Positions 5,663 to 21,071 of a stretch of 64,000 bases of DNA are shown piece by piece. The first letter of the stretch is position 1; each line of letters starts with the position of its first letter. A program made the translations under genes and the position numbers. A model generated the notes under the pieces. The model saw only the letters and a list, made by a program, of their open reading frames with translations. It was not told the origin of the DNA and ran no database searches. Source of the stretch: Candidatus Mycobacterium wuenschmannii (lineage in GTDB: Bacteria > Actinomycetota > Actinomycetes > Mycobacteriales > Mycobacteriaceae); NCBI RefSeq assembly GCF_030252325.1, contig NZ_CP126981.1:248001-312000 (forward strand), given 5' to 3'.

Positions 5663-5671
5663 GGCGTTCTC

Positions 5672-7705: not shown

Positions 7706-8040
7706 TGCTCGTCGCCTTCCTCTAGGCCGGTTGCCGGTGAATTCACGGCGTTCTACCGTCGATTTACTGCGCAAGCGCTCGGGTTTCGCAGAAATCCTAA
7801 ACGCCGTGGCGGACATCTTCACGGAGCCGCGACGGTGACGTCTCCCACGGATCGCGCCAACCGCCGACGGTATCGCGGACGCACGACGCCAAAACGTATG
7901 ACCTCGATGAGCTGTATCGGGTCCTAATCTGCATCGATGACACCGGCTATTGACGGTCGAGCGATCGCGGTCATACGCTTCGAGTCAATATGTCGGCTTG
8001 AGCCTTACCGCGGGGTGCTGGCAGAGAGACGGGTTTACCG
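7706..8040. promoter_or_regulatory. 335-bp divergent intergenic region with a 9-bp inverted pair
   Basis: The gap separates the topoisomerase pair (leftward) and the P450 gene (rightward), so it must carry both promoters. CGTATGACC at 7895-7903 is matched by its complement GGTCATACG at 7969-7977; extending outward gives 11 of 12 matching bases. The 65-bp spacing suggests two operator sites or a DNA loop rather than one dimer site. The TetR gene after the P450 is a candidate binder. No clear -10 or -35 could be assigned. Confidence 0.4.
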
Positions 8041-9294
8041 ATGAACGTAAGTAGTGCCGCTCCCAATGTCTTCGAGGCCGGGCTTCCGAACCTCACCTAC
8101 GGGCTGGATGCCACTCCCCAGGACATCCTCGACGACGTCCGATCGGTGCAGGCGCGCTCGCCGATCGCTATCGGCCCGCTCGGACCGGAAATCCTGGCTT
8201 ACGATTTGGCTCGTGACTTTCTGCGCGACAACAGGTTTCGGCTACCGCCGGGGATTACGCTTGCGGCGCAAGGCATCACCTCAGGTCCGTTGTTCGACAA
8301 GTTGGCGAACAGCCTCTTAGGCCTCAACGGCCCACCGCACGTCCGATTGCGCAAGCTAGTTTCGAAGGCGTTCACGCCTCGTGCGACGTCGCGGCTCCAG
8401 GACACCATCCACGAGGTGGTGAACGGGCTGATCGATCGGGTGATGGACGCCGGACGGTGCGACGTCGTGACTGATATTGCCCGTCCATACCCCACCCCCA
8501 TCATCTGCGCGCTGCTCGGCGCCCCCCGCGAGGACTGGGAGCTGTTCGCGGACTGGACCGAAGACATCTTCAAGGCCCTCAACTTTCAGCCAGATGCCAC
8601 CTTCGACGAGTCCGCGGTCATGCGGGCCTGGGGTGAACTCGACGCGTACGTCGACGGCATGGTCGCCGCACGCCGACACAATTTGACCGATGATCTGCTC
8701 TCGGAGCTCATCCGCGTGGAAAGCGAGGGCGACCGGCTGGATCTCGACGAACTGCGCATGCTGGCGTCCGGATTCCTGATGGCTGGAACAGATACGACGC
8801 GCAACCAGTTGGCGGCGTCGGTCCAGGTGATGTGTGAGCATCCAGACCAATGGGAGACGTTGCGCGACCATCCAGAACTTGCCATGCAGGCAGTCGAGGA
8901 GACCATGCGCCACTCGCCCGCGGCGTGCATCGTGCCGCGCGCCGCGGTAGGAGACGTTGAATTCGCCGGCTACCTGTTCCCGGCGGGAACCTTCGTACTT
9001 GCCAACACCCTTGCGGCCAACCGTGATCCGGCAATCTACGACGAGGCCGATCGCTTCGACATCACGCGCAACGACGTTCCCGCGATCTTGACGTTCGGCG
9101 GTGGCGCGCACTACTGCCTGGGGGCGAATCTCGCCCGGCGGGAACTGGCAGAGGCACTCATCGTCCTCACCCGTCGCCTGCCCGCGCCCCACCGCATCGG
9201 TCCGGCACCGTGGAAATCCCTGCTGGGAATGACCGGTCCGACGACCCTTCCGATCGGGTTTACGAGCGATCGGCGCGTGACGGCGGATGCGTAG
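8041..9294 (+). CDS. Cytochrome P450
   Basis: A 417-residue soluble bacterial P450, which would oxidise a small molecule using electrons from a ferredoxin and reductase. The I-helix oxygen-activation motif is AGTDTTRNQ, the K-helix ExxR is ETMR, and the haem loop is FGGGAHYCLGANLARRE with the cysteine ligand at about residue 359. Acid-alcohol pair of the I helix is present as D-T. No ferredoxin gene adjoins it; the only ferredoxin in the window is plant type at 28409. The TetR gene overlaps its last 8 bases, so the regulator probably controls it and responds to the substrate. CYP family cannot be assigned by eye. Confidence 0.95.
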   Translation: MNVSSAAPNVFEAGLPNLTYGLDATPQDILDDVRSVQARSPIAIGPLGPEILAYDLARDFLRDNRFRLPPGITLAAQGITSGPLFDKLANSLLGLNGPPHVRLRKLVSKAFTPRATSRLQDTIHEVVNGLIDRVMDAGRCDVVTDIARPYPTPIICALLGAPREDWELFADWTEDIFKALNFQPDATFDESAVMRAWGELDAYVDGMVAARRHNLTDDLLSELIRVESEGDRLDLDELRMLASGFLMAGTDTTRNQLAASVQVMCEHPDQWETLRDHPELAMQAVEETMRHSPAACIVPRAAVGDVEFAGYLFPAGTFVLANTLAANRDPAIYDEADRFDITRNDVPAILTFGGGAHYCLGANLARRELAEALIVLTRRLPAPHRIGPAPWKSLLGMTGPTTLPIGFTSDRRVTADA

Positions 9295-9949
9295 TCGAGG
9301 CTGGGCGGGTTCGACGCCCTCGTCGGATGAGGAAGCCATTGCGCGCATCCTGACCGCAGTAGACCAAGAGGTTGCCGAGCACGGGGCGGCGCTACGTCTT
9401 GCCGACGTCGCCCGCAGGCTCGGAGTCACACGCCAAACCGTCTATCGCTACTTCCCGAATGCCGACGCGCTGCTCATCGCCAGCGCGATGCGCGCGGTCA
9501 ACGGCTTCATCGACCAGGCCGCGGAACACGTTCGCGGCCTGAATGATCCGGTTGCCGCCGTTGTCGAATGTGTGTCGTTCGGGATCGAAAACCTTACCGG
9601 CGACCCACAATTGGAAGGCTTGCTCAATCGCTCGGACGAGGGTCCCGCCGTCTCCCTAACCTCCGACACCGCGGTCAGCTTCTGCTTGTCAGTTTTCGAC
9701 CGCCTCGATGTCGATTGGAAGTTGCACGGTTTCGACAGCGCCGCCCTCCGTGAAATTGCCGAGATGACGTTGCGCACGGTGCAGTCCCTGCTGACCGATC
9801 CTGGGGAAACGCCACGCACGGGAGCTTCGCTACGACGCTTCGTTGCCACATGGCTGGGCCCAGCGATCCTCTATCCGCGCATGGCCTCGCTGGCGATCTA
9901 CCAACATGACGCGACGTTGGAATCCGCTCGCACCCGCCAAATGCGTTGA
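9287..9949 (+). CDS. TetR family transcriptional regulator
   Basis: A 220-residue regulator. The N-terminal helix-turn-helix reads LADVARRLGVTRQTVYRYFPNADALL, typical of TetR. The C-terminal ligand-binding part is not identifiable. It starts within the last codons of the P450 gene (8-bp overlap), so the two are translated together. Likely a repressor of the P450 operon, binding in the gap before 8041. Alternatively it could control the exported-enzyme genes on the other strand, which end 6 bp away. Confidence 0.9.
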   Translation: MRSRGWAGSTPSSDEEAIARILTAVDQEVAEHGAALRLADVARRLGVTRQTVYRYFPNADALLIASAMRAVNGFIDQAAEHVRGLNDPVAAVVECVSFGIENLTGDPQLEGLLNRSDEGPAVSLTSDTAVSFCLSVFDRLDVDWKLHGFDSAALREIAEMTLRTVQSLLTDPGETPRTGASLRRFVATWLGPAILYPRMASLAIYQHDATLESARTRQMR

Positions 9950-9955
9950 TGCGAG

Positions 9956-10798
9956 CTAGATCTGCCAATCGTTGGAGCCGTCGTGCCGTGCGTAGGTACC
10001 GCCGCCGGAGTTGGTGACCACGATGGGATCGCCGGCGTTGAAGTTGTCGAAGAACCATCGCGCGTTCGCCGGACTGATGTTGATGCAGCCGTGGCTGACG
10101 TCGCGCTTACCCTGGTCGTCCACCGACCACGGCGCGCTGTGCACGTAGTCGCCGCTGTCGTCGAAGCGAACGGCCAGCTCGACCGTGGTCTTGTAGCCGT
10201 AGGTCGAAGAGACCGGGACCCCGTACGTCGAGGAGTCCATCACCACCGATGGCTTCTTTTCTTGGACGTAATAGGTGCCGTTGGGGGTTTGGTGCCCACC
10301 GGCCGCCATCCCCATCGACATCGGAATCGTCTTCTCCACAACGCCATTGCGGGTGACGACCAACTGATGCGAGGGGTCGTCGGCCGTGGCGATCAACGTG
10401 TCGCCGGTCTGGAAGCTGGACACAGCACCAGCGGCGTCGACGGTCACCGCGGTGTGGGCTGGCCAGAAGGCCAGCGGACGCCACCGCAGCTGCGTGGGAG
10501 TCATCCAGTAGAACTTGCCGTCCACGGGCGGTTCGGAGGTGATGTGGACGGAGTTTTCGGCGAAACTGGAGCCGTCCGGGAAGTTGATGATGATCGGTTG
10601 ACCCACACCCACGGTCGAGCCGTTGCCAGGAAAGATCCGCGTGGGGTTGGGCGGCGGAGCCGGGTCTGGCCCGGGATCGCCGGGCGGCGGGTCCGCCCAC
10701 GCGAGTCCGGTTCCTGGTAACAGCGCCGCGCTCGACGCCAGGATCGACGCCAACGCCGCAGTCTTCACAGCGGCGAAGAGGCTTCCCCAGCCGGACAT
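9956..10798 (-). CDS. L,D-transpeptidase (YkuD) with Ig-like domain
   Basis: About 280 residues from ATG 10798 (GGAGGGG just upstream). N-terminal signal sequence ([23 protein letters not shown]), a proline-rich linker, an Ig-like domain ([20 protein letters not shown]...) and a C-terminal YkuD catalytic domain with the HGCINIS active-site cysteine motif preceded by [23 protein letters not shown]. Such enzymes make 3-3 cross-links in mycobacterial peptidoglycan and are insensitive to most penicillins. The layout is that of the LdtMt group; which paralogue it matches is uncertain. It is encoded downstream of and in line with the GH6 gene, separated by 75 bp. Confidence 0.93.
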
Positions 10799-10873
10799 AC
10801 ATCCCCTCCGATTACTTCGTTCGAGTGGTTCGCCGCGCACCCGTGTGCCGGATGCGTGCGACGACGAACGCTC

Positions 10874-11884
10874 CTAGTGACCGGCGCGCGCCAGATCGAC
10901 AGGGCCACCGTTGTGGGCCAGGTCGACGACGTATTGGTTCACGAACGTCCCGGCAGGCGGGTCGCCTTTGTCGCACGATCCGTCGGACTCGCCGGGACGC
11001 TTGATCCACAGGAACGCGTCGACATGTCCGTTGCCGGTCGCTGTCGTCGGAACCGCGCCCAGCGCCCGACCGCTGGGGTTGCACCAGTCGAGCTTGGACG
11101 CCGGCGCCGGGCCCACGCCGTTGCGCGAGGTGTCGATGACGTAGTGCGCACCATTGAGATGCGCCGAAATCGCGTCGCCGTAACCGATTTCGCTGTCGGT
11201 GGTGTAGAAGTTGGCGACGTTGAGGCTGAATCCGCGCGCGTGGCCGACACCGGCTTTGTTGAGTCGGTCGGCCATGTCCTCGGGGCTGTGCCAGAAGATG
11301 TGGCCGGCGTCGACGTACACACCCGTCGCTGGATTGCGCGAGAGTGAGTCGACGGCGTAGCGGATCAGGTCATAGCGCTCCTGGCGCTGATCCCCGGACA
11401 GGCAGTCGGCCATCGCGAGGGCGTCGGGCTCGACGACCACGGCAGCGCGCGAAGCGCCGATCTGGCCCGCAATGCCGTCAATCCATCCGCGGTAGGCGTC
11501 ACCCGATCCCATGCCGCCGGCGGCGAAGCTGCCGCAGTCGCGGTGGGGGATGCCGTAGATCGTGAACACCGGTAGCGCCCCGGCAGCAGCCGCGTCACCG
11601 GTGTACTTCGCCACGGTCGACGCCGAGGAGCCCGGGACCAGCCAGTACGCCTGCGGTGTGTTGGCGACGGCGGTCAACTCCGGACTAGGCGGATTGGCTT
11701 TCTGCGCAGCGCGCATGGCCGCCGAGTTGGGGTTGACGTAAAAAGGCATGCCCGCCAGCGGGTTGGCATCGTCCACCAGGCGCACCCCGGGTGCGGGGCC
11801 GGCCTGGGTGGGATTCGCGACGAGGAACAAGCCGGCGATGAGGGGGAGGACGGTAGCGACTAACCGGGCGACGGTAGAGAACAT
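10874..11884 (-). CDS. Secreted glycoside hydrolase family 6 protein (endoglucanase-like)
   Basis: 336 residues starting at ATG 11884; the preceding GTG at 11887 is also possible. The signal peptide is VARLVATVLPLIAGLFLVANPTQAG. The GH6 core shows the VVVEPDALA loop carrying the catalytic acid, then YVDAGHIFWHSPEDMADRL and the C-terminal HVDAFLWIKRPGESDGSC region. Family members cut beta-1,4-glucans by inversion. M. tuberculosis has related CelA1 (Rv0062). In a mycobacterium the target may be plant cellulose or the organism's own cellulose-containing biofilm matrix. There is no separate carbohydrate-binding module in this one. Confidence 0.9.
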   Translation of the reverse strand: MFSTVARLVATVLPLIAGLFLVANPTQAGPAPGVRLVDDANPLAGMPFYVNPNSAAMRAAQKANPPSPELTAVANTPQAYWLVPGSSASTVAKYTGDAAAAGALPVFTIYGIPHRDCGSFAAGGMGSGDAYRGWIDGIAGQIGASRAAVVVEPDALAMADCLSGDQRQERYDLIRYAVDSLSRNPATGVYVDAGHIFWHSPEDMADRLNKAGVGHARGFSLNVANFYTTDSEIGYGDAISAHLNGAHYVIDTSRNGVGPAPASKLDWCNPSGRALGAVPTTATGNGHVDAFLWIKRPGESDGSCDKGDPPAGTFVNQYVVDLAHNGGPVDLARAGH

Positions 11885-12168
11885 CACACCTGAGAAATTA
11901 GCGTCTTCGGCCAGCGCACGCGACTTGCCCCCTTGTTACCCGCAGCGAGGACAGACCTGTGCTCGCAATCTGTCCGTGCTCGCGATATCGACAAATCGAA
12001 GCTGGTTGAATGACTCAGCGCGACCACGAGGCGGTTGCTGAGCACCCGCACAGCAGTGACCTACACTTACACATCGACCAGAAGATGTATCGGCAGTGTC
12101 CAACCCTGGGGATGGTCCTGGAATGCGATTGACGATGTTGATCGAGCACGATGACGCGAGGGTCCGCG
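11885..12168. promoter_or_regulatory. Divergent intergenic region upstream of the mutase operon
   Basis: About 280 bp between the GH6 gene and the mutase operon. Two inverted repeats are visible. GGACAGA at 11949-11955 pairs with TCTGTCC at 11969-11975. ACATC at 12071-12075 pairs with GATGT at 12084-12088, in a slightly larger imperfect palindrome. The latter is about 80 bp from the mutase start and could be a regulator site. I could not assign promoters or match either element to the palindrome beside the GntR gene at 16824. Confidence 0.35.
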
Positions 12169-13743
12169 ATGAGTGACGTGGTGCAGACGCCGTCGGGCAT
12201 CCCGCTGGACGCGGTTTACGGGCCGGGGGATCGAGGTCCCGAACCGGCACCCGGCGAGTACCCGTTCACCCGCGGCAACTTCGCCTCCGGCTATCGCGGC
12301 AAGACCTGGACGTTCCGCCAGTACTCGGGCTTCGGCACCGCCGAGGAGTCCAACGAGCGGTATAAGTATCTCCTGGGTCAGGGCAGCACGGGACTCTCCG
12401 TCGCGCTCGACCTGCCGACGCAGTGCGGCTACGACTCCGACGACCCGGAATACGGCGAAGAGGTCGGCCGCGTCGGCGTCGCCGTCGACACCCTCGCCGA
12501 CGCCGAGTTGCTGTTCGACGGCATCCCGCTGGACAAGATCAGCACCAGCTTCACCATCAACGGCACTGCCGCGATCCTGCTGGCGTTCTACGTCGCCGCC
12601 GCGGAGAAGAAGGGCGTGCCTCGGGAAAAGCTCACGGGCACAATCCAAAACGACATCCTCAAGGAATACGCGTCGCGCGGCACGTGGATCTGGCCGCCGG
12701 AGCCCTCGCTGCGGCTGATCGCGGACACCATAGAGTTCTGCGCCGCCGAAGTGCCCAAGTTCAACGCGATTTCCGTTGCGGGCGCGCACTTTCGGGACGC
12801 GGGCGCCAACGCCGTACAGGAGATGGCCTTCACCCTGGCCGACGGTGTCACTTACTGCGACACCGTCGTCGAACGCGGCCGGATGACCATCGACAAGTTC
12901 GCGCCGCAGATCTCGTTCTTCTTCTACACCCACGGCGACTTCTTCGAGGAGATCGCGAAGTACCGGGCGGGCCGACGCCGCTGGGCAACCATCGTGCGCG
13001 AACGCTACGGCGCCACAACGGATAAGGCATCGATGTTCCGCTTCGGCTGCGTCGCGGGCGGCGCGTCGCTGTATGCGCCGCAGGCGCAGAACAACCTGGT
13101 CCGTGTCGCCTACGAATCGCTGGCCGCGGTGCTCGGCGGCGTCCAGTCGATGTTCACCGCCGCGTGGGACGAGCCGTTCGCGCTGCCGAGTGAGGAGTCC
13201 GCCACGCTGGCGCTGCGCACCCAGCAGATCCTGGCCTACGAGACCGGGGTGACCAAGGTGGCCGACCCGCTGGGCGGCTCCTACTTCGTCGAGGCGCTGA
13301 CCGACGCCACCGAGGCCAAGATCATCGAGATCATGGATGACCTCGAAAAGCACGGCGGCATGGTGCGTTCCATCGAGGACGGTTACCTGCAGGGGCTGAT
13401 TGCCGACGAAGCCTTCAAGATCCACCAGGAGGTCGAATCGGGCGAACGTCCCGTCGTCGGCGTCAACAAGTTCGTCACCGACGAACCGTCGCCCGACATC
13501 GACACCTACGAGCTGAACGCCGAGGGTCGCGATCTGCAGCTGCGGCGGCTGGCGAAAGTCAAAGCCGAGCGCGACGCGGTCGCCGTCAAGGAAACACTGG
13601 CCGCGCTCTCACGTGCGGCCGAGGGGACCGAGAACCTGATGCCACGACTCATCGACTGCGCCAACGCGTATTGCTCTGTCGGAGAACTGGTTACAGCGCT
13701 CAAAGCGGTCTGGGGCGAGTTCCAGCAGCCGGTGGTGTTCTGA
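12169..13743 (+). CDS. Adenosylcobalamin-dependent acyl-CoA mutase, large (substrate-binding) subunit
   Basis: About 524 residues. It resembles the catalytic TIM-barrel subunit of methylmalonyl-, isobutyryl- and ethylmalonyl-CoA mutases and lacks the C-terminal B12 domain, which is supplied by the next gene. Visible family blocks are TWTFRQYSGFGTAEESN, GLSVALDLPTQCGYDSD, TINGTAAILLAFY, GTIQNDILKEY and a C-terminal MPRLIDCANAY. Counting against the P. shermanii methylmalonyl-CoA mutase as I remember it, Tyr89 is kept (Tyr52), Arg207 is kept (Arg170) and His244 is kept (His207), but Tyr243 is Ala206 and Met78 is Gly41. Tyr and Arg favour a carboxyl-bearing acyl group; the two small residues suggest a bulkier substrate. 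An earlier in-frame ATG lies at 12151; 12169 fits better. Confidence 0.9.
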   Translation: MSDVVQTPSGIPLDAVYGPGDRGPEPAPGEYPFTRGNFASGYRGKTWTFRQYSGFGTAEESNERYKYLLGQGSTGLSVALDLPTQCGYDSDDPEYGEEVGRVGVAVDTLADAELLFDGIPLDKISTSFTINGTAAILLAFYVAAAEKKGVPREKLTGTIQNDILKEYASRGTWIWPPEPSLRLIADTIEFCAAEVPKFNAISVAGAHFRDAGANAVQEMAFTLADGVTYCDTVVERGRMTIDKFAPQISFFFYTHGDFFEEIAKYRAGRRRWATIVRERYGATTDKASMFRFGCVAGGASLYAPQAQNNLVRVAYESLAAVLGGVQSMFTAAWDEPFALPSEESATLALRTQQILAYETGVTKVADPLGGSYFVEALTDATEAKIIEIMDDLEKHGGMVRSIEDGYLQGLIADEAFKIHQEVESGERPVVGVNKFVTDEPSPDIDTYELNAEGRDLQLRRLAKVKAERDAVAVKETLAALSRAAEGTENLMPRLIDCANAYCSVGELVTALKAVWGEFQQPVVF

Positions 13744-14144
13744 TGGCGGCCCGCGTGCTGGTGGCGAAGCCCGGTCTGGACGGGCACGACCGCGGCGCGA
13801 AGATCGTGGCGCGCACCCTGCGTGACGCCGGGTTCGAGGTCATCTACACCGGCATCCGGCAGCGCATCGAGGACATCGTGTCGATCGCGCTGCAAGAGGA
13901 CGTCAAACTCGTCGGGCTGTCGATCCTGTCGGGTGCGCACCTGGCCCTGACAACCCGAACTGTCGACGCGCTGCGCGCCGCGGACGCCAGCGATATCGCG
14001 GTGGTCGTCGGCGGCACCATCCCGCAGGCGGATGTGCAGAAGTTGTTGGATGCCGGTGCCGCAGCGGTCTTTCCGACGGGCACGTCGCTGGAGACGCTGG
14101 TTCGCGATGTCAAGGCGCTGACCGAAGCCGGGGCAGAGGACTGA
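13743..14144 (+). CDS. B12-binding small subunit of the acyl-CoA mutase
   Basis: 133 residues forming a stand-alone cobalamin-binding Rossmann domain. The DxHxxG motif is GLDGHDRGAK, with His15 as the lower cobalt ligand, followed by the LSILSGAH serine loop and the GGTIP glycine pair. Its start ATG overlaps the TGA of the large subunit (TGATG), so both are made in step for a heteromeric holoenzyme, as in isobutyryl-CoA and 2-hydroxyisobutyryl-CoA mutases. Methylmalonyl-CoA mutase of mycobacteria (MutA/MutB) is organised differently, with the domain fused. Confidence 0.95.
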   Translation: MAARVLVAKPGLDGHDRGAKIVARTLRDAGFEVIYTGIRQRIEDIVSIALQEDVKLVGLSILSGAHLALTTRTVDALRAADASDIAVVVGGTIPQADVQKLLDAGAAAVFPTGTSLETLVRDVKALTEAGAED

Positions 14145-15187
14145 TGCCCGGCCCGCTCGCCGGAATTCGGGTGCTCGAGATCGGCCACATGCTGGCCGGG
14201 CCCTACGCCACGATGATGCTGGCCGACTTGGGGGCCGAGATCATCAAGATCGAGCCGCCGGGTGGCGACATCTCCCGGCAGGTCGGGGATTCGTATTTCG
14301 CCAGCCTCAATCGCGGCAAGCGCAGCATCTGCGTGGATCTGACGTCCGAAGCCGGCCAGCGCGAACTCGGTGAACTCGTCTCCGAATCCCATGCGCTGCT
14401 GGCGAATTTGAAGCCGTCGGCGATTCAACGCTACGGCCTCAACTACGACGCGCTGCGGGTATGGAACGACCGGATCGTCTGCGTGGCCCTGACCGGTTTC
14501 GGTCTGGACGCGGGCGACGACCCGGCGTTCGACTACGTGATCCAGGCGACGACGGGTATCGCCGCGCTGACGGGCGATCCGCTCGGCCCGCCGACCCTGC
14601 CGGGATACTCCGCCGCCGACAACTCCGCCGGAATCACCGCCGCGCTGGGACTCTTGGCCCAGATCGTGTCCGGCCGCGGAGGACAGGTCGAGGTCTCGCT
14701 TCGCGACGTGATGCTCTCCCAGCTGAACTACCGCGCGTCCGCCTATCTCAACGACGGCGCCGAGCCGCGTCGGCTGCCGATGGGTGCGCACTCGTATTAT
14801 GTTCCCGCTCAGCTCTTTTCCACTGCGGACGGCTATCTCGCGCTGTTCATCACTCACGACAAGTTCTGGAAGCTGTTCGCCGCGGAGGCCGGCATCGTTG
14901 GGCCCGAGACGATGCGGGAGCGGTCCGCACAACGCGACGAGGTTCTCGCGCTGGTGAACGCCGCGCTGGCCACCGACACCGCCGTGAACTGGGAAGCGCG
15001 GCTGCGTCGCCTCGGTGTGCCCGTCGCGGCCGTCCGGACGTTGCCCGAGGCGCTCGCCGCCAACCCGGAAGTGGTCGTCGACGCAGGCGCATTTCGGCTG
15101 ATCCGCAGCCCCATTCAGGTTGACGGGTACGAACCCGAATACGGCGCACCACCCCTACTCGGTGAGCATGGCAAAGCCAGTCTCTGA
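14144..15187 (+). CDS. Family III (CaiB/BaiF) CoA-transferase
   Basis: 347 residues. The opening MPGPLAGIRVLEIGHMLAGPYATMML and GAEIIKIEPP are characteristic of family III CoA-transferases, which move CoA between an acyl-CoA (often succinyl-CoA) and a free acid through an aspartyl intermediate. The catalytic Asp is about residue 188 in VEVSLRDVML. The gene begins inside the stop of the B12 subunit (ATGA) and its end overlaps meaB, so it is an integral operon member. The likely job is to activate the acid that the mutase rearranges, in place of the acyl-CoA ligase found with 2-hydroxyisobutyryl-CoA mutase. Its substrate cannot be read from sequence. Confidence 0.93.
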   Translation: MPGPLAGIRVLEIGHMLAGPYATMMLADLGAEIIKIEPPGGDISRQVGDSYFASLNRGKRSICVDLTSEAGQRELGELVSESHALLANLKPSAIQRYGLNYDALRVWNDRIVCVALTGFGLDAGDDPAFDYVIQATTGIAALTGDPLGPPTLPGYSAADNSAGITAALGLLAQIVSGRGGQVEVSLRDVMLSQLNYRASAYLNDGAEPRRLPMGAHSYYVPAQLFSTADGYLALFITHDKFWKLFAAEAGIVGPETMRERSAQRDEVLALVNAALATDTAVNWEARLRRLGVPVAAVRTLPEALAANPEVVVDAGAFRLIRSPIQVDGYEPEYGAPPLLGEHGKASL

Positions 15188-16061
15188 GCTCATTCAGGCG
15201 TCGTTGGACGGCTCCGCCCGGGCGACGGGGCGCCTGCTGAGCCTGATCGAAGGCGACCGCCGCGACGAGGTGCTGGCGGCCCTGAGCGCTGACACCGCCC
15301 CCATTCGGGTGGTCGGAATCACCGGACCGCCGGGCGCGGGAAAGTCGACGACGATCGCGGTGCTGGTCACCGCCTACCGCGAACGCGGCCTGCGTGTCGC
15401 CGTGCTCGCGGTGGACCCGTCGTCGCCCTACAGCGGTGGCGCCATCCTCGGTGACCGTATCCGGATGGCCGCCCACATCAACGATGCCGACGTGTTCATC
15501 CGCTCGATCGCCACCCGGGGTCACCTGGGCGGTCTGGCCGCGGCGGTACCGGCGGCGATCCGGCTGCTCGCAGCGCTGTCCTACGACCTGGTCGTGCTCG
15601 AAACGGTCGGTGTCGGTCAGTCGGAGATCGAGATCGCGGCCGTCGCCGACCCCACCGTCGTCATCCTCAATCCCGGTGCGGGCGACGCGGTGCAAGCCGC
15701 GAAGGCGGGCCTGCTCGAAGTCGCCGACATCGTGGTCGTCAACAAGGCCGACCGCGACGGCGCGAAGCAGACCGCCCGCGATCTGCGGGCCGAGACGTCG
15801 GCGCCGGTCCTCACACTTGTCGCCGCCCGTTCCGAGGGCGTCACCGAGTTGATCGACGCGATCGAAGCCCATCACCGCGCCGACACGCCGGCCCGCAGGG
15901 CGTCGCGCGCCCGGGCGCAGATCCTGTCGCTTGCGCAGACCCGCCTGCACCGCCATCCCGAACTCGTCGAACTGGCCGCCGCCGTCGCCGACGGTCGCTG
16001 CGATCCCTACACCGCCGCCGGCCGGCTACTGATCGAGTCGGCCACCGACAAACCCGGCTAG
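15168..16061 (+). CDS. meaB: MeaB/ArgK-type G-protein chaperone of the B12 mutase
   Basis: About 297 residues from ATG 15168, which lies 20 bases inside the CoA-transferase gene. It has a P-loop (GPPGAGKSTT), switch-region DPSSPYSGGAILGDRIRM, the LETVGVGQSEIEIA block and the NKAD base-recognition motif. MeaB proteins load adenosylcobalamin into acyl-CoA mutases and expel inactivated cofactor, with GTP hydrolysis. Clustering with this mutase means it probably serves this enzyme; the housekeeping methylmalonyl-CoA mutase would be expected to have its own copy elsewhere. Confidence 0.95.
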   Translation: MAKPVSELIQASLDGSARATGRLLSLIEGDRRDEVLAALSADTAPIRVVGITGPPGAGKSTTIAVLVTAYRERGLRVAVLAVDPSSPYSGGAILGDRIRMAAHINDADVFIRSIATRGHLGGLAAAVPAAIRLLAALSYDLVVLETVGVGQSEIEIAAVADPTVVILNPGAGDAVQAAKAGLLEVADIVVVNKADRDGAKQTARDLRAETSAPVLTLVAARSEGVTELIDAIEAHHRADTPARRASRARAQILSLAQTRLHRHPELVELAAAVADGRCDPYTAAGRLLIESATDKPG

Positions 16062-16062
16062 C

Positions 16063-16785
16063 TCACTTCGGCCGGCTGCGGTTCATCACCCGGTCCGCTG
16101 CGGCCCAGTGCTCGTCGGAGACCCACAATGCGGCGAATGCGGCGATGGCATCGCGCGCCGGCACGCCGCCGACGACTCGCTTGATCTCGCCGGCGGGCTT
16201 GTTGGCCAGCGACCGCGCCAGTGACCGCCACTCAGTGTCGAAGGTCGCCCTCGGCAGCACCCGGTCGATCAGCCCGAGCCGTTCGGCCTCCGGCGCGGTG
16301 AGAATGGTGCCGCTGCCGGCGAGCATCAGCGCGCGGCCGCGGCCGACGAGGGTTGCGAGCCGTTCGGCGCCGCCCCAGGCCGGCATGATCTCGAGCGAGA
16401 CCTGGTTGAACCCGATCTTGATGTCGTCGGCGGCAACTCGGATGTCGGCGGCGACGGCGACCTCCGCGCCACCTCCGAGGGCGTGGCCGTTCAGTGCGGC
16501 GACCACCGGGGCGGGGAACTCGGCCAGCTGGTCGCAGATTGACCGCATCCGCGACGCCATCGCGGCCGCCTGCTCGACCGTGCGCAACGCGCTGAGCTCT
16601 TTGAGGTCTCCGCCCGAGACGAACGCCTTCTCGCCCTCACCCCGAATGACCAGGCATTGCGCGCCCTCGGCGCCAGTGATGGCCTGCTCGAGTTGGTCCA
16701 TGGTCTGCGGTGCGATGGCATTGCGCGCGTTCGGGCGGTTGATGGTGATGACGGCCAGCCCGTCGTCGAGTTCGAGCTCAACCAT
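16063..16785 (-). CDS. Enoyl-CoA hydratase/isomerase family protein
   Basis: 240 residues from ATG 16785 with AAGGAC upstream; a longer frame extends through the GntR gene and is not credible. Crotonase-fold motifs are LAVITINRPNARNAI, the oxyanion-hole segment ALNGHALGGGAEVAVAADIRVA and GFNQVSLEIMPAWGGAERL. The glutamates of true hydratases are not both obvious: Glu in GGGAEV is present, and the second position reads SLEIMPAWGG. It converges on meaB with a 1-bp gap and is divergent from the GntR gene. A role in further processing of the mutase product or substrate is an inference from position. Confidence 0.9.
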   Translation of the reverse strand: MVELELDDGLAVITINRPNARNAIAPQTMDQLEQAITGAEGAQCLVIRGEGEKAFVSGGDLKELSALRTVEQAAAMASRMRSICDQLAEFPAPVVAALNGHALGGGAEVAVAADIRVAADDIKIGFNQVSLEIMPAWGGAERLATLVGRGRALMLAGSGTILTAPEAERLGLIDRVLPRATFDTEWRSLARSLANKPAGEIKRVVGGVPARDAIAAFAALWVSDEHWAAADRVMNRSRPK

Positions 16786-16823
16786 TTGTGTCCTTCGCGC
16801 CGACGTTGCCGAAGAGACATTCA

Positions 16824-16844
16824 TATCAGATTTCACATGTGATA
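16824..16844. promoter_or_regulatory. Candidate GntR operator between divergent genes
   Basis: In the 85-bp gap between the enoyl-CoA hydratase and GntR genes, TATCA at 16824-16828 is matched by TGATA at 16840-16844, with the self-complementary CACATGTG partly inside. It is the only obvious dyad in the gap, and GntR proteins usually bind such sites near their own gene. No footprint or second copy supports it. Confidence 0.4.
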
Positions 16845-16870
16845 CCCGCAGGCCAGCTACCGTTGGTTTC

Positions 16871-17515
16871 ATGCCTGGTGTTTCCGACATTTCCGGGACC
16901 GTGCGCGAGCGCGCCGTGCGGGAACTGCGCGACCGCATCCTGACCGGGGCCCTGCCCGCGGGCGCGCGCATTGACCTGGACGCCATAACCACCGAGTTCG
17001 CCACGAGTCGCACACCGGTGCGCGAGGCGCTACTGGAACTGTCGTTCGAAGGCCTCGTCCAGGTGGCGCCGCGCAGCGGCATCACGGTCATCGGCATCAG
17101 CTCACGGGACGTGGTCGACAGCTTCACGATTCTGGGCGTCCTCACCGGGCAGGCCGCCGCGTGGGCGGCCGAGCGCATCAACGACGAGGAACTCGCTGCG
17201 CTCCGCGAATTGGCCGGCGAGGTCGCGGCGCGGTCGGGTGCCGACAGCATCGGCGAAGCCAACTGGCGCTTCCATCAGGAGATCCACCGCGCGGCTCATT
17301 CGCGACGACTGCTCGCCCAACTCACCCAGGCCGCCCGCGTGGTCCCGACCAACTTCCTGACCCTGTTTCCCGAGCACGAGAAGCATTCGCTCGACGAGCA
17401 CGACGAACTGATCGAGGCGATTTCCGAGCACGATGCGGAGCGGGCCCGCTCGGTGGCCGAACGGCACGTCCTCGAGGCCGGCCGGTCGCTGGCTTCGTGG
17501 CTCGATCAGCGCTGA
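16871..17515 (+). CDS. GntR family regulator (FadR-type C-terminal domain)
   Basis: 214 residues from ATG 16871. The winged helix-turn-helix is RERAVRELRDRILTGALPAG, then TTEFATSRTPVREALLELSFEGLV, the classic GntR pattern. The C-terminal part is an all-helical FCD-type effector domain with metal-binding candidates (WRFHQEIHRAAHS; DEHDELIEAI). FCD regulators commonly sense organic acids or acyl-CoA. It is divergent from the enoyl-CoA hydratase gene, follows the mutase operon, and may control one or both. Confidence 0.92.
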   Translation: MPGVSDISGTVRERAVRELRDRILTGALPAGARIDLDAITTEFATSRTPVREALLELSFEGLVQVAPRSGITVIGISSRDVVDSFTILGVLTGQAAAWAAERINDEELAALRELAGEVAARSGADSIGEANWRFHQEIHRAAHSRRLLAQLTQAARVVPTNFLTLFPEHEKHSLDEHDELIEAISEHDAERARSVAERHVLEAGRSLASWLDQR

Positions 17516-17537
17516 TTCGCGCGCTCGCTAGCGAATC
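17514..17537. terminator. Short inverted repeat at the end of the GntR gene
   Basis: GATTCGC at 17514-17520 pairs exactly with GCGAATC at 17531-17537 across 10 bases. It begins in the GntR stop codon and lies between convergent genes. There is no T run, as is common in mycobacteria, so a terminator role is only plausible. Confidence 0.35.
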
Positions 17538-17569
17538 CTGCGGTCCTGCAACGTTATTGCTGCGTTCAA

Positions 17570-18025
17570 CTAGTTGCGGGTGATCAGGATGACGCCGGTG
17601 ATGAGAACCAAGCCACCGATCACGCGGGTGGGGGTAAGGGGGTGCGCCGGCACTCCTAACCATCCGTAGTGATCGATGACCAACGAGGCGATCAGGTTGG
17701 CGCTGACGGTGAGCGCGGCGTAGGTGCCGACACCGATCGCGCCGATGAAGAGCAGGCCGCAGACCACGGCGAGGGCTCCGACGATGCCGCCCAGCGGAGC
17801 CCACCAGGGCATCCCGGCGACGCCGGCGACAGATGGCAGCGGTCGGACGAACACCGCCGCGACGACGAGGAATATCGGCACGATCAGCCCGAAGGACACC
17901 AGGGTGGCCAGCCATGGGTTCACCAGTGATACCCGGAGGGCGTTGTTCATGGCGCCACCCATTGCCTGTAGCGCACCGCCCGCCACGATCAGCGGAAACA
18001 GCCATAACGCGCTGGTCGATGTCAT
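17570..18025 (-). CDS. DMT-superfamily small transporter (YdcZ/DUF606 type)
   Basis: 151 residues from ATG 18025, with GAGGAG upstream. It is almost entirely hydrophobic with about five membrane segments, beginning LWLFPLIVAGGALQAMGGAMNNALR and ending RVIGGLVLITGVILITRN, the signature layout of the DUF606/YdcZ half-size drug/metabolite transporters. Substrate unknown. It is downstream of, and on the same strand as, the ArsB-like transporter, separated by 47 bp. Confidence 0.85.
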   Translation of the reverse strand: MTSTSALWLFPLIVAGGALQAMGGAMNNALRVSLVNPWLATLVSFGLIVPIFLVVAAVFVRPLPSVAGVAGMPWWAPLGGIVGALAVVCGLLFIGAIGVGTYAALTVSANLIASLVIDHYGWLGVPAHPLTPTRVIGGLVLITGVILITRN

Positions 18026-18072
18026 CGAAGCTCCTCTGGGTTGAGTCGTTTTCCGAATGAGGGCACTACAGA

Positions 18073-19335
18073 TCAGGTCCCGATGAGTTCGACCGAGGCC
18101 CAGAGCGCGAGGACGGCGGCGGCCAAAGCGGTGGGGGTTGCCAGTGCGCCGATTGCGGTGAACTCGCCGACCGTGGTGTGGTGGCCGTGCTGGCGCAGGA
18201 CGCGTCGCCACAGCATGGTCGCCAGCGACCCGGTGTAGGTGAGGTTGGGCCCGATGTTGACCCCGATCAGGACGGCCAGGACGACGGCGGGCCCGGCGGC
18301 AGCGACCAACGGAATCAGCATCAGCACGGCGGGCAGATTGTTGACCACGTTGGCCGCGATCGCCGCAACGACGGCGATCGCGAGTAGCTCTGCCAGCCCG
18401 CCGGGATGCGGAAGCCAGGCGCGCAAGTGCTCACCGAGCCCGTTATCGATCAGTGCGCGAACCACCACACCCAGTGCGAGCACGAAGAGCAGAAACGGGA
18501 TGTCGACGGCGCGCGCGATCGTTGCGATGCGGGCTTTCCGGGACACCAGTGAGCGCACCGACAACGCCAGTGCCCCCGCTGCGGCGGCCCACGCGGGACT
18601 GAGGCCTGCCGCTTCGGTGACGACGAATCCGATCAACGTTGCCGCCACCGCGACCAGGGCCGCCACGGGGAGAGCCGGCGGGGCGGCCCGGTCGGATGAC
18701 GGAGCGACTTCGGGTGTGGTCAGATCTACCGAAAAGAATCGCCGTATGACAAGGAACTCCGCGAATATCGCTGCCAGCCAAGGTAATCCCATCAGGCCCG
18801 CGAAGTGTACGAAGCTCAGGCCACTGGCCTGGAGTGCGAGCAGGTTGGTGAGATTGGAGACCGGCAAGAGCAGAGAGGCGCTGTTGGAGAGGTGACCGCA
18901 TGCGTAAAGATGCGGGCGGGCATTGACTTTCAGCCGTGCAGCGGTGGCCGATACCACTGGCGTCAGCAGCATGACGGTCGCATCGAGGCTGAAGACCACC
19001 GTGACCACCGAGGCGACTGCAAACACTGCGACAAGCAATCGCCGCGAGTTACCACCCGAGGCACGGGCCATCCACACGCCGCACCATTCGAACAAACCCT
19101 CCACGGCGCAGAGCTGTGACAACACCAGCACGGCGGCCAGAAACCCGACGACCGGTGCCAGCTGGGCGATTTCGTTGCGTGCGTCGGTCGGCGAGACCGC
19201 GTCGACTCCGACCACAATGACTGCCGCCGGAACCGCGACCACGGCTTCAGGCCATCCGAACGGGCGAACTATCGCCGAGACCAACACCACCAGAAGCAGT
19301 GCAGCAGAAATCGACTCTGCGACAAACGCATTCAC
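18073..19335 (-). CDS. ArsB/NhaD-type ion or organic anion transporter
   Basis: 420 residues with about 11-12 membrane segments. The internal repeat of the ion-transporter superfamily is visible as SLDATVMLLTPVV in the first half and NVVNNLPAVLMLIPL in the second, each next to a re-entrant segment (NSASLLLPVSNLTN; GVNIGPNLTYTGSLATMLW). This is the arrangement of ArsB arsenite pumps and related citrate or Na+/H+ carriers. There is no arsR or arsC gene nearby, so arsenite is only one option. ATG start at 19335. Confidence 0.88.
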   Translation of the reverse strand: MNAFVAESISAALLLVVLVSAIVRPFGWPEAVVAVPAAVIVVGVDAVSPTDARNEIAQLAPVVGFLAAVLVLSQLCAVEGLFEWCGVWMARASGGNSRRLLVAVFAVASVVTVVFSLDATVMLLTPVVSATAARLKVNARPHLYACGHLSNSASLLLPVSNLTNLLALQASGLSFVHFAGLMGLPWLAAIFAEFLVIRRFFSVDLTTPEVAPSSDRAAPPALPVAALVAVAATLIGFVVTEAAGLSPAWAAAAGALALSVRSLVSRKARIATIARAVDIPFLLFVLALGVVVRALIDNGLGEHLRAWLPHPGGLAELLAIAVVAAIAANVVNNLPAVLMLIPLVAAAGPAVVLAVLIGVNIGPNLTYTGSLATMLWRRVLRQHGHHTTVGEFTAIGALATPTALAAAVLALWASVELIGT

Positions 19336-19421
19336 ATGGCTTCACCTTCTCCGGGTCTGGTGATAGCCGAGCGCCGATCAGGCACGATCGCCAGATACAA
19401 CGATGGGCAGATACTTGCGGT

Positions 19422-19658
19422 CTATGGCCCCACCAGTCCCGCGAAGAAACCGGGCCCGCCTAAACCGCCGATCGGTCCCGCGGCCATGCCCAGCAGCAGG
19501 ATGCCCAGCACAGCCGCGGCGGCCACCCACGGCCAGACCCGCACCGGGTCGCGTAGCGCCTCGCGGCGCTGCGTCTCGGCGGGTGGGTAGGAGCGGGTGT
19601 TCTTGCCGGCCCAGTAGCAGCCGGCGCCCACAGCGGCAATCACGAGTGCTATCAACAT
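19422..19658 (-). CDS. Small two-span membrane protein of unknown function
   Basis: 78 residues from ATG 19658 with GAGGAGC upstream. Segment 1 is LIALVIAAVGAGCYWAG, then a charged loop (NTRSYPPAETQRREALRDPVR), then WPWVAAAAVLGILLLGMAAG and a glycine-rich tail. It is downstream of the proline-rich membrane protein gene on the same strand (30 bp), probably one transcript divergent from the two-component system. No family recognised. Confidence 0.7.
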   Translation of the reverse strand: MLIALVIAAVGAGCYWAGKNTRSYPPAETQRREALRDPVRVWPWVAAAAVLGILLLGMAAGPIGGLGGPGFFAGLVGP

Positions 19659-19688
19659 GATTGAGCTCCTCGAGAGGCGAGTGGTGCG

Positions 19689-20210
19689 TCAGCTCGGCGG
19701 CCCGGGTGGCGGAGGTGGGCCCCAAGGTCCCGGGGGTGGTGGTGCGCCCGGCCCCCAGCCGGGTGGAGGCGGTGGAGGTCCCGCGAACGGCGGTGGGGGA
19801 GGCGGGCCCCAACCCGGCGGCGGCGGAAGCGGTGCTCCCCAGGACCCTGGGGGTGGTGGTGCGCCCGGTCCCCATCTCGACGGAGGCTGAGGCGGTGCTC
19901 CCCAGGGTCCCGGAGGCGGCGGCGCCTGATCGATGTGGGCGGGCGGCATCGCGCGCACTGGGTCATTCCAGGGCTCGCCGGCAGGTGCAAAGGCGTTGAA
20001 CATCGAGGCTGTCAGTCCGGCGCCGAGCAGCAGTCCCGCGACCCCCGCGCCGATCGGCAGCGCCAGAGGATGCCGGTCTGATGAGCGGCGAAGTGACTGC
20101 CAGCGGCGGCGCGGCAGCGTCGAGACCGTCTCGGGGACCTGATCGTCTGCCTGCACCGGCCTCTCGGCCTGGCTGGCGGCGCTGGTATCGGGTTGTTCGT
20201 CTTCAGTCAT
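19689..20210 (-). CDS. Single-pass membrane protein with long proline-rich C-terminus
   Basis: 173 residues. Acidic N-terminus (about 1-35), a basic stretch (RRRWQSLRRSSDR), one membrane helix (LALPIGAGVAGLLLGAGLTA, residues about 50-69) and a C-terminal half made of repeats related to PPPPGPWGAPP and PPPPGWGPP. The N-in topology predicted from the basic stretch would put the proline-rich tail outside the membrane. The neighbouring sensor kinase, divergently encoded, carries a similar proline-rich segment in its outer loop, so the two could meet there. Function unknown. Confidence 0.75.
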   Translation of the reverse strand: MTEDEQPDTSAASQAERPVQADDQVPETVSTLPRRRWQSLRRSSDRHPLALPIGAGVAGLLLGAGLTASMFNAFAPAGEPWNDPVRAMPPAHIDQAPPPPGPWGAPPQPPSRWGPGAPPPPGSWGAPLPPPPGWGPPPPPPFAGPPPPPPGWGPGAPPPPGPWGPPPPPGPPS

Positions 20211-20264
20211 TGCCCCGTCTCTTTCGCGGTCGGTGGTCGATACCGGGAAAGCTAGGCAGCGAAC

Positions 20265-20320
20265 TTGAAGCGGACCTGAAGAAACTGCGCCCGCGACTGT
20301 TTCTTCAGGCTGGTTTCAGC
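20265..20320. promoter_or_regulatory. Probable response-regulator binding region
   Basis: In the divergent gap (20211-20342), an 11-bp perfect inverted repeat lies at 20275-20309: CCTGAAGAAAC, 13-bp spacer, GTTTCTTCAGG. Each arm also has a partial direct copy about 11 bp away (CTTGAAG before CCTGAAG; TTTCTTCAG before GTTTCAG), the spacing seen in OmpR-family sites. It starts about 33 bp upstream of the regulator start, so autoregulation and control of the divergent membrane-protein genes are both likely. Confidence 0.6.
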
Positions 20321-20342
20321 ATGGTCGCGCTAAGAATGGACC

Positions 20343-21071
20343 ATGCCCGATGACGCCCCCGCTGTACCGCGCAGCCAACGTTCCGCTGCACCTTTCAGTG
20401 CCGGTTCGCCGAGGGTGTTGGTCGTGGAAGATTCCGAGACGATCCGCGAGATGGTCGCCGAGGCGTTGACCGAGGTCGGGTATCACACCGATGTGCGCTC
20501 CGACGGGCACCGGCTGGAGAGCGTTCTCGACGGTGTCCGACCGGACTTAGTGGTTCTCGATGTGATGCTGCCCGGTCGCGACGGTTTCGCACTCACCGAA
20601 GTCATTCGCGCCTGGGGCGATGCGGGCATCGTGATGATCACCGCCCGCGACGGGCTGCCTGACCGGCTGCGCGGACTCGACGGGGGTGCCGACGACTACG
20701 TCGTGAAGCCCTTCGAATTGGCGGAATTGGTCTCGCGGGTCGGAGCGGTACTGCGTCGCCGCGGGCGCCTGCCACAGGTCGTGCAATTCGGCGACCTGAC
20801 GCTCGACGCCGCGGCAGGAGTCGTCGCGCGCGACGGATACCGGCTCGATGTGACCGCGACGGAGTTGCGGCTATTGACCTTCCTCGTCGAACAGCGGGGC
20901 CGCATCGTCAGTGCGACTCAGATCCTCAGTGCCGTATGGGGATACGACGCCTACGACACCAACCTCGTCCAGGTGCACATCAGCAGCCTGAGACGAAAAC
21001 TCGAAGCCCATGGACCGCGCATCCTGTTGACCGTCCGCGGTCTCGGTTACCGGCTGCAACCACCGACATGA
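20343..21071 (+). CDS. OmpR-family response regulator
   Basis: 242 residues. Receiver domain at about 20-135 with the phospho-acceptor Asp in PDLVVLDVMLPGRDGF, the Thr switch in IVMITARD and Lys in DDYVVKPFELAEL. C-terminal winged-helix DNA-binding domain ends in VRGLGYRLQPPT, and SLRRKLEAHG is its recognition-helix region. The gene overlaps the sensor kinase by 4 bp (ATGA), so they are a cognate pair. The partner operator is probably the dyad at 20275-20309. Which named mycobacterial system it corresponds to is uncertain; TrcRS-type systems look similar. Confidence 0.95.
   Translation: MPDDAPAVPRSQRSAAPFSAGSPRVLVVEDSETIREMVAEALTEVGYHTDVRSDGHRLESVLDGVRPDLVVLDVMLPGRDGFALTEVIRAWGDAGIVMITARDGLPDRLRGLDGGADDYVVKPFELAELVSRVGAVLRRRGRLPQVVQFGDLTLDAAAGVVARDGYRLDVTATELRLLTFLVEQRGRIVSATQILSAVWGYDAYDTNLVQVHISSLRRKLEAHGPRILLTVRGLGYRLQPPT

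Follow-up and report, generated by a model that had tools for sequence, protein, structure and literature searches.

In this study, an operon for a B12-dependent acyl-CoA mutase was analyzed in a stretch of 64,000 nt from Candidatus Mycobacterium wuenschmannii (the window, positions 248001-312000 of a host genome consisting of a single contig of 5.10 Mb). The operon, at 12169-16061 of the window, comprises four genes, and the open reading frames (ORFs) listed for this region in a first-pass annotation are present:

12169-13743, plus strand: large subunit of an acyl-CoA mutase (MUT, TIM barrel), a member of what is called here the Ala243-His244 clade
13743-14144, plus strand: B12-binding small subunit overlapping the MUT stop, with the motif LDGHDRG (DxHxxG); TIGR00640, 146 bits (cut-off 57)
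14144-15187, plus strand: CaiB/BaiF (family III) CoA-transferase of 347 amino acids; PF02515, 269 bits
15168-16061, plus strand: MeaB-type G-protein chaperone (GTPase); TIGR00750, 255 bits (cut-off 241)

Because their stops and starts overlap, the four genes look like one coupled unit: TGATG is shared by MUT and the B12 subunit gene at 13741-13745 and by the B12 subunit gene and caiB at 14142-14146, and the ATG of meaB (15168) falls inside caiB, which ends at 15187. The mutase start (ATG, 12169) agrees with the 525-aa length of most relatives listed. The large subunit significantly matched the TIM-barrel acyl-CoA mutase superfamily, and the small subunit has the B12 domain with the DxHxxG motif expected of that superfamily. 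With NCBIfam NF006944, the large subunit scored 562.5 bits against an equivalog cut-off of 876, which a split chain cannot reach since the model describes a fused protein. A search for a B12 riboswitch in 7500-20500 returned, up to E = 1, nothing but one sub-threshold match to a snoRNA family, regarded as a chance hit. PF01642 had three matches in the host genome, the window gene and two at 832955-836421, the second of which is a methylmalonyl-CoA mutase (MCM) with normal residues.

Residues of the large subunit, counted from 12169, were equated by alignment with those of the Propionibacterium shermanii MCM (1req), whose numbering is used below unless window residues are named. The following active-site positions (all plus strand) were compared:

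12289-12291: Gly41, equivalent to Met78; Gly also in 7 of 50 other mutases
12322-12324: Tyr52, equivalent to Tyr89, kept
12406-12408: Leu80, equivalent to Phe117; Leu in 197/201 actinobacterial and 120/120 proteobacterial rows, Phe in 47/50 other mutases
12676-12678: Arg170, equivalent to Arg207, kept
12784-12789: Ala206-His207, equivalent to Tyr243-His244
13045-13053: Gly293-Cys294-Val295, equivalent to His328-x-Gln330; predicted strand 292-296, local confidence low
13153-13161: Phe329-Thr330-Ala331, equivalent to His364-Thr-Asn366; predicted strand 325-330 and the next residue, local confidence low

Counts were made over 201 actinobacterial rows (the window, 80 loci and 120 protein clusters), 120 proteobacterial clusters and 50 other mutases. 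The rows are not independent, since many come from close relatives and some proteins occur in duplicate. Neither the window's own locus (L002) nor two pieces of L003 entered the list of fixed positions, the tree or the residue counts; five clade rows (L102 and L084-L087) were kept separate from the 50 other mutases, and L112 was omitted from the list of fixed positions and retained in the tree and residue counts. The proteobacterial rows are the best 120 of about 8000 matches to the clade profile and show fixation within the clade, not its reach; the actinobacterial clusters are likewise the best 120 of about 8000 matches.

The alignment agreed with the first-pass annotation in that Tyr89, Arg207 and His244 are kept as Tyr52, Arg170 and His207, with a Tyr52-Arg170 spacing of 118, and in that Tyr243 and Met78 become Ala206 and Gly41. 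The latter substitution is real and yet no mark of an unusual site, since 7 of the 50 other mutases also have Gly there. On the whole, the claim of an unusual site was right and understated, as substitutions also affect residues that hardly vary in the other mutases examined. The changes it had missed were His328 to Gly293, Gln330 to Val295, His364 to Phe329, Asn366 to Ala331, Phe117 to Leu80 and Ser241 to Ala204. Position 243 was Ala in 201/201 actinobacterial and 120/120 proteobacterial rows (Tyr in 48/50 other mutases); position 328 was Gly (His in 49/50) and position 330 Val (Gln in 49/50) in the same 201/201 and 120/120. Phe occupied position 364 in 200/201 and 120/120 (His in 49/50 others), and position 366 was Ala in 201/201 actinobacterial and Cys in 119/120 proteobacterial rows (Asn in 48/50 others). 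Around Ala206-His207, 199 of 200 actinobacterial sequences read NAISVAGAHFRDAG, the remaining one differing in the last letter. Thr195, Gln197 and Glu370 were also kept. Judged from these alignments, the signature is a fixed, coordinated rebuilding across the clade, not one odd sequence. A structure model of the large subunit had a mean pLDDT (predicted local distance difference test) of 71.7, with low values in 297-314, 319-325 and 329-370, near the strands that carry the substitutions.

A tree of 42 rows was built and midpoint-rooted for drawing, with three long rows (IcmF, L111 and L112) placed unsurely. The 12 Ala243 rows, from actinobacteria and alpha-, beta- and gammaproteobacteria, formed one side of a branch with support of 100/98. 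Three MCM rows grouped together at 100/100, apart from the Ala243 rows, 12 rows resembling isobutyryl-CoA mutase (ICM; Phe89/Gln207) fell together at 91/92, and the two rows of 2-hydroxyisobutyryl-CoA mutase (HCM) formed their own group. The sole Ecm/MeaA-like row (L108, so labelled from its fused size), in a set holding no named Ecm, was placed elsewhere.

Three known identities were considered and rejected. ICM-like rows have Phe89/Gln207 and lie on another branch, as does the Methylibium row labelled HCM with Ile89/Gln207/Asp116, whereas the window mutase has Tyr/Arg and Tyr/Arg/Ala, respectively; positions 89 and 207 exclude both enzymes, as had been proposed. An ordinary MCM agrees with the window at Tyr89/Arg207/His244, but its Tyr243/His328/Gln330 are Ala/Gly/Val there, and the window mutase is separate from the MCM rows. 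Both the residues and the separate branch thus bear out the earlier view that this active site is unlike that of ordinary MCM, ICM or HCM; no Tyr aligns at position 243, and the clade rows stand apart from MCM and ICM-like rows.

Three further mutases were seen on plasmids. L112 (4785-6506; Sphingobium sp. TomMM7A), itself odd, 38% identical and unsurely aligned, has Val89, Val207, Ala243, Gln244 and Met328 and lies near P450, epoxide hydrolase and MeaB genes. L111 (2890-4566; Roseovarius sp. THAF8), with Leu89, Asn207 and Gln243, adjoins genes for MeaB and an AMP-binding protein. L115 (4884-6584; Sinorhizobium meliloti pB), with Val89/Gln207/Asp116, groups with the HCM rows and lies near genes for an aminotransferase, a crotonase and an AMP-binding protein.

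Of 148 genomes sampled within the genus of the window, 112 had a match at E ≤ 1e-150; 111 of these reached at least 84% identity and the remaining one 48%. In a sample of the phylum, 103 of 149 genomes had some match at E ≤ 1e-60; the 6 with an identity of at least 82% comprised the host genome itself, three further members of the genus, one of the family and one of the class. Relatives listed from several genera were 83-95% identical. Such proteins are named methylmalonyl-CoA mutase (family protein) or acyl-CoA mutase large subunit in their source records; the former name, taken at face value, would put the wrong propionate-pathway reaction into metabolic models. No description of such a clade was found in the literature searched, which covered few subscription journals, so that this absence means little; the accessible portions of PMC5395668, PMC9804861, PMC10481361, PMC10356863 and PMC11599936 contained no link to the Ala243 clade.

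Seven plasmid records, four from Paraburkholderia and one each from Sulfitobacter, Marinobacter and Diaphorobacter, carried a mutase at 56-57% identity, and the Ala243 signature was confirmed in the four records checked. In all seven, a crotonase gene and a caiB gene lay in the matching place, the former at 45% identity or more to the Sulfitobacter crotonase (38% or less in other matches, among the best 15 of 1033 records) and the latter at 56% or more (40% or less in other matches, among the best 20 of 1229 records). All four modules read out had the order crotonase-MUT-B12-CaiB-GTPase, two of the GTPases being annotated as hypothetical and recognized by alignment; the Sulfitobacter GTPase scored 222 bits against MeaB, just below the cut-off of 241. 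Genes for tripartite ATP-independent periplasmic (TRAP) or tripartite-tricarboxylate transport lay just downstream in three of the four modules, and a TRAP binding protein gene about 4.6 kb away in the fourth. Downstream in the Marinobacter module is a cobalamin adenosyltransferase gene (TIGR00636, 192 bits, cut-off 108), which fits an adenosylcobalamin (AdoCbl) enzyme. An oxygenase gene was suspected in the Sulfitobacter module, in the gap separating its reductase gene from its regulator gene, and rejected, as the only long frame there resembles, by eye, a transposase.

Next to the operon in the window are two further genes:

16063-16785, minus strand: crotonase-family enzyme (PF00378), convergent to meaB
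16871-17515, plus strand: GntR-like regulator, divergent from the crotonase gene; GntR-type matches below cut-offs

The GntR-like protein was scanned from 16844 and its start placed at 16871; it is a possible regulator. In NCBIfam, the CaiB protein matched best to succinate-glutarate and to succinyl-CoA:mesaconate or oxalate transferases, without reaching the cut-off of any (175 bits against 750 for succinate-glutarate CoA-transferase). In the crotonases of the window and of the four proteobacterial modules, Glu144 is retained and position 164 is Gln (5 of 5, aligned together with a dehydratase; rat numbering). Because Gln replaces Glu at 164, they appear unlikely to be standard hydratases.

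Gene context was counted in 72 of 80 actinobacterial loci, those with enough flank (at least 8.5 kb downstream); the 80 are the best of 417 relatives, and the counts lean to close kin. Genes for the B12 subunit and CaiB stood beside the mutase gene in 72/72 loci each. The loci also contained an F420-type luciferase-like oxidoreductase (TIGR03564; 70/72), an acyl-CoA ligase (68/72), two acyl-CoA dehydrogenases (65/72 each), a second crotonase (65/72), the short-chain dehydrogenases/reductases (SDR) SDR10 (62/72) and SDR8 (57/72), and MeaB (43/72). In the host genome, the oxidoreductase, ligase, dehydrogenase and second crotonase genes of this long operon are found at 3.03 Mb without mutase, B12 subunit and CaiB genes, and the next CaiB relative by E-value is only 34% identical; the pathway is therefore probably split in the window's lineage. 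The short gene order is common to L004 and L005. The long-operon remainder (3026001-3046000) is interrupted by frames resembling, by eye, a LysR regulator and an SDR.

One more gene of the window may be connected with these two pathway halves:

8041-9294, plus strand: cytochrome P450, with a 60% paralogue beside the other pathway half in the host

Among 58 P450-like matches in the host, only three, the window's included, are at least 60% alike, and two of these (8041-9294, and 3040521-3041744 of the contig) lie near the two pathway halves, which is suggestive of a role of the window P450 in the same pathway as the mutase. Its subfamily was found in 7 of the 80 related loci and not in L004, where 10 kb upstream were searched; L005 has too little upstream sequence to show it. 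Elsewhere in the window, adjoining GyrA-like and GyrB-like genes (3533-7822, minus strand), the latter far below gyrase and ParE cut-offs, are perhaps a second type II topoisomerase pair.

From the sequence evidence, we propose, with a probability of roughly 55%, that the window enzyme is an AdoCbl carbon-skeleton mutase for the CoA ester of a di-acid with a bulky, mostly hydrophobic substituent, interconverting a 2-substituted succinyl-CoA and a substituted malonyl-CoA. The CaiB transferase would put CoA on the di-acid or shift it between the two carboxyls, MeaB would load and guard the cofactor, and the mutase would shift the thioester group. The substituted malonyl-CoA might then lose CO2, a step assigned to the Gln164 crotonase where the operon is short and to the pair of acyl-CoA dehydrogenases where it is long, and the resulting acyl-CoA would enter beta-oxidation. 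The set of genes, the retention of catalytic residues, the substitutions in the pocket, the separate branch and the conserved linkage are observed; the reaction direction, the substituent, the CO2 loss and the order of steps are what we infer. That the enzyme is still an AdoCbl mutase, and its substrate one with a second acid group, seems most likely because Tyr89, Arg207, His244, Glu370 and DxHxxG are kept; Tyr89 and Arg207 presumably go with the substrate carboxylate in MCM, and ICM-like and HCM rows have Gln207, versus Arg207 in the clade. A bulky substituent is suggested by Tyr243Ala, Phe117Leu and the change from His/Gln/His to Gly/Val/Phe. An acidic acyl-CoA with a bulky group had been guessed before; its dicarboxylic part gains from the presumed role of Arg207/Tyr89, the below-cut-off CaiB matches and the transport genes, and the substituent it named is a conjecture.

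Several observations weigh against this proposal. The best NCBIfam matches of the module crotonases, all shown below cut-off, are hydratase families, and the E. coli crotonase taken for ScpB has Pro, not Gln, at 164; CO2 loss by the module crotonase, on the model of ScpB, is thus a guess. The long-operon crotonase lacks both Glu (3 rows aligned), and the window-type crotonase is present in only 3 of the 72 actinobacterial loci. Position 283 is Gln in the actinobacterial rows and Arg in MCM and proteobacterial rows. Finally, His328, Gln330 and Asn366 may be in contact with the adenosyl group, so that even the chemistry of the cofactor could be different.

The mutase could instead be an orthologue or close cousin of IaaGH, the phenylsuccinyl-CoA/benzylmalonyl-CoA mutase of bacterial indoleacetate degradation, with an aryl-succinate as its substrate in aerobic bacteria. 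A pocket of larger size would have room for an aryl group, and the accessible part of PMC8360864 describes the same functional trio of CoA-transferase (IaaL), B12 mutase (IaaGH) and a step removing the malonyl carboxyl (IaaF). This likeness is one of pathway description, not of IaaG sequence; no name pointing to Aromatoleum appeared among the matches in two lists (each the best 120 of about 8000, many nameless), and the annotation of the genes around the four modules names none for indoleacetate, which makes this alternative unlikely. IaaL itself we take to be a family III CoA-transferase. It is improbable that the substrate is a neutral or hydroxylated branched acyl-CoA, as for HCM or pivalyl-CoA mutase, with the neighbouring genes serving other steps: Tyr89 and Arg207 are kept, versus Ile89/Gln207/Asp116 in HCM and Phe89/Gln207 in ICM-like rows, the HCM rows are on another branch, and the CoA-transferase resembles dicarboxylate transferases, though below cut-off. 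Similarly low is the chance that the enzyme has abandoned the radical chemistry of AdoCbl, or that it binds the adenosyl group in a novel fashion. This would explain why His328, Gln330, His364 and Asn366, near-invariant in the 50 other mutases, are all replaced; Tyr89, His244 and Glu370 persist, however, along with the B12 motif and MeaB, one module has a cobalamin adenosyltransferase, and 83-95% identity among relatives of several genera speaks for a working enzyme. A drifted ordinary methylmalonyl- or ethylmalonyl-CoA mutase, which would share Tyr89, Arg207 and His244 with MCM, is hardly credible given the normal-residue MCM (L001) in the same genome, the separate branch and the fixed, coordinated changes in both Actinomycetota and Pseudomonadota.

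Returning to the proposed di-acid mutase, a wider suggestion can be offered tentatively, and it may well prove wrong: the clade may be a further mutase class with a rebuilt adenosyl/substrate cavity, present in most sampled genomes of the genus and in environmental Pseudomonadota, for bulky (cyclo)alkyl- or terpenoid-derived succinyl-CoA esters in aerobic breakdown, opening branched or quaternary carbons to beta-oxidation. Targeted first-shell changes left an HCM inactive, according to the accessible part of PMC11599936, which cautions that there is little room for substitution in such sites. A mutase that lacks four residues present in almost every other one examined would be a means of testing which elements of the site retain the radical, a wider pocket could be a scaffold for new carbon-skeleton rearrangements, and the conserved neighbours make the question of which di-acid is used directly testable.

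Compared with known systems, the window operon shares with MCM Tyr89, Arg207, His244, Thr195, Gln197 and Glu370 as well as a MeaB-type GTPase; it differs in the replacement of positions 78, 117, 241, 243, 328, 330, 364 and 366, in its split subunits and in the adjoining CaiB and crotonase genes. HCM (4r3u, row L110) has Ile89, Gln207, Asp116, Tyr243, His328, Gln330 and His364 and lies on another branch than the window mutase. The E. coli Sbm operon (L109), which we take to be scpA-argK-scpB-scpC with the functions these names imply, has, side by side, genes for a mutase and a crotonase-like protein and two frames of 334 and 505 aa, which we regard as the GTPase and the CoA-transferase, respectively. 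Its mutase has Tyr243, His328 and Gln330, its crotonase motif differs from the window's, and ScpC belongs to another CoA-transferase family than CaiB/BaiF. The nearest described logic, likened by description, would be the IaaGH pathway, in which a B12 mutase and a CoA-transferase act on a substituted succinate; in the accessible part of PMC8360864, IaaL transfers CoA both within a phenylsuccinate and from one to another, and IaaGH connects phenylsuccinyl-CoA with benzylmalonyl-CoA. There the dehydrogenase IaaF follows, whereas the window clade has a crotonase or a dehydrogenase pair.

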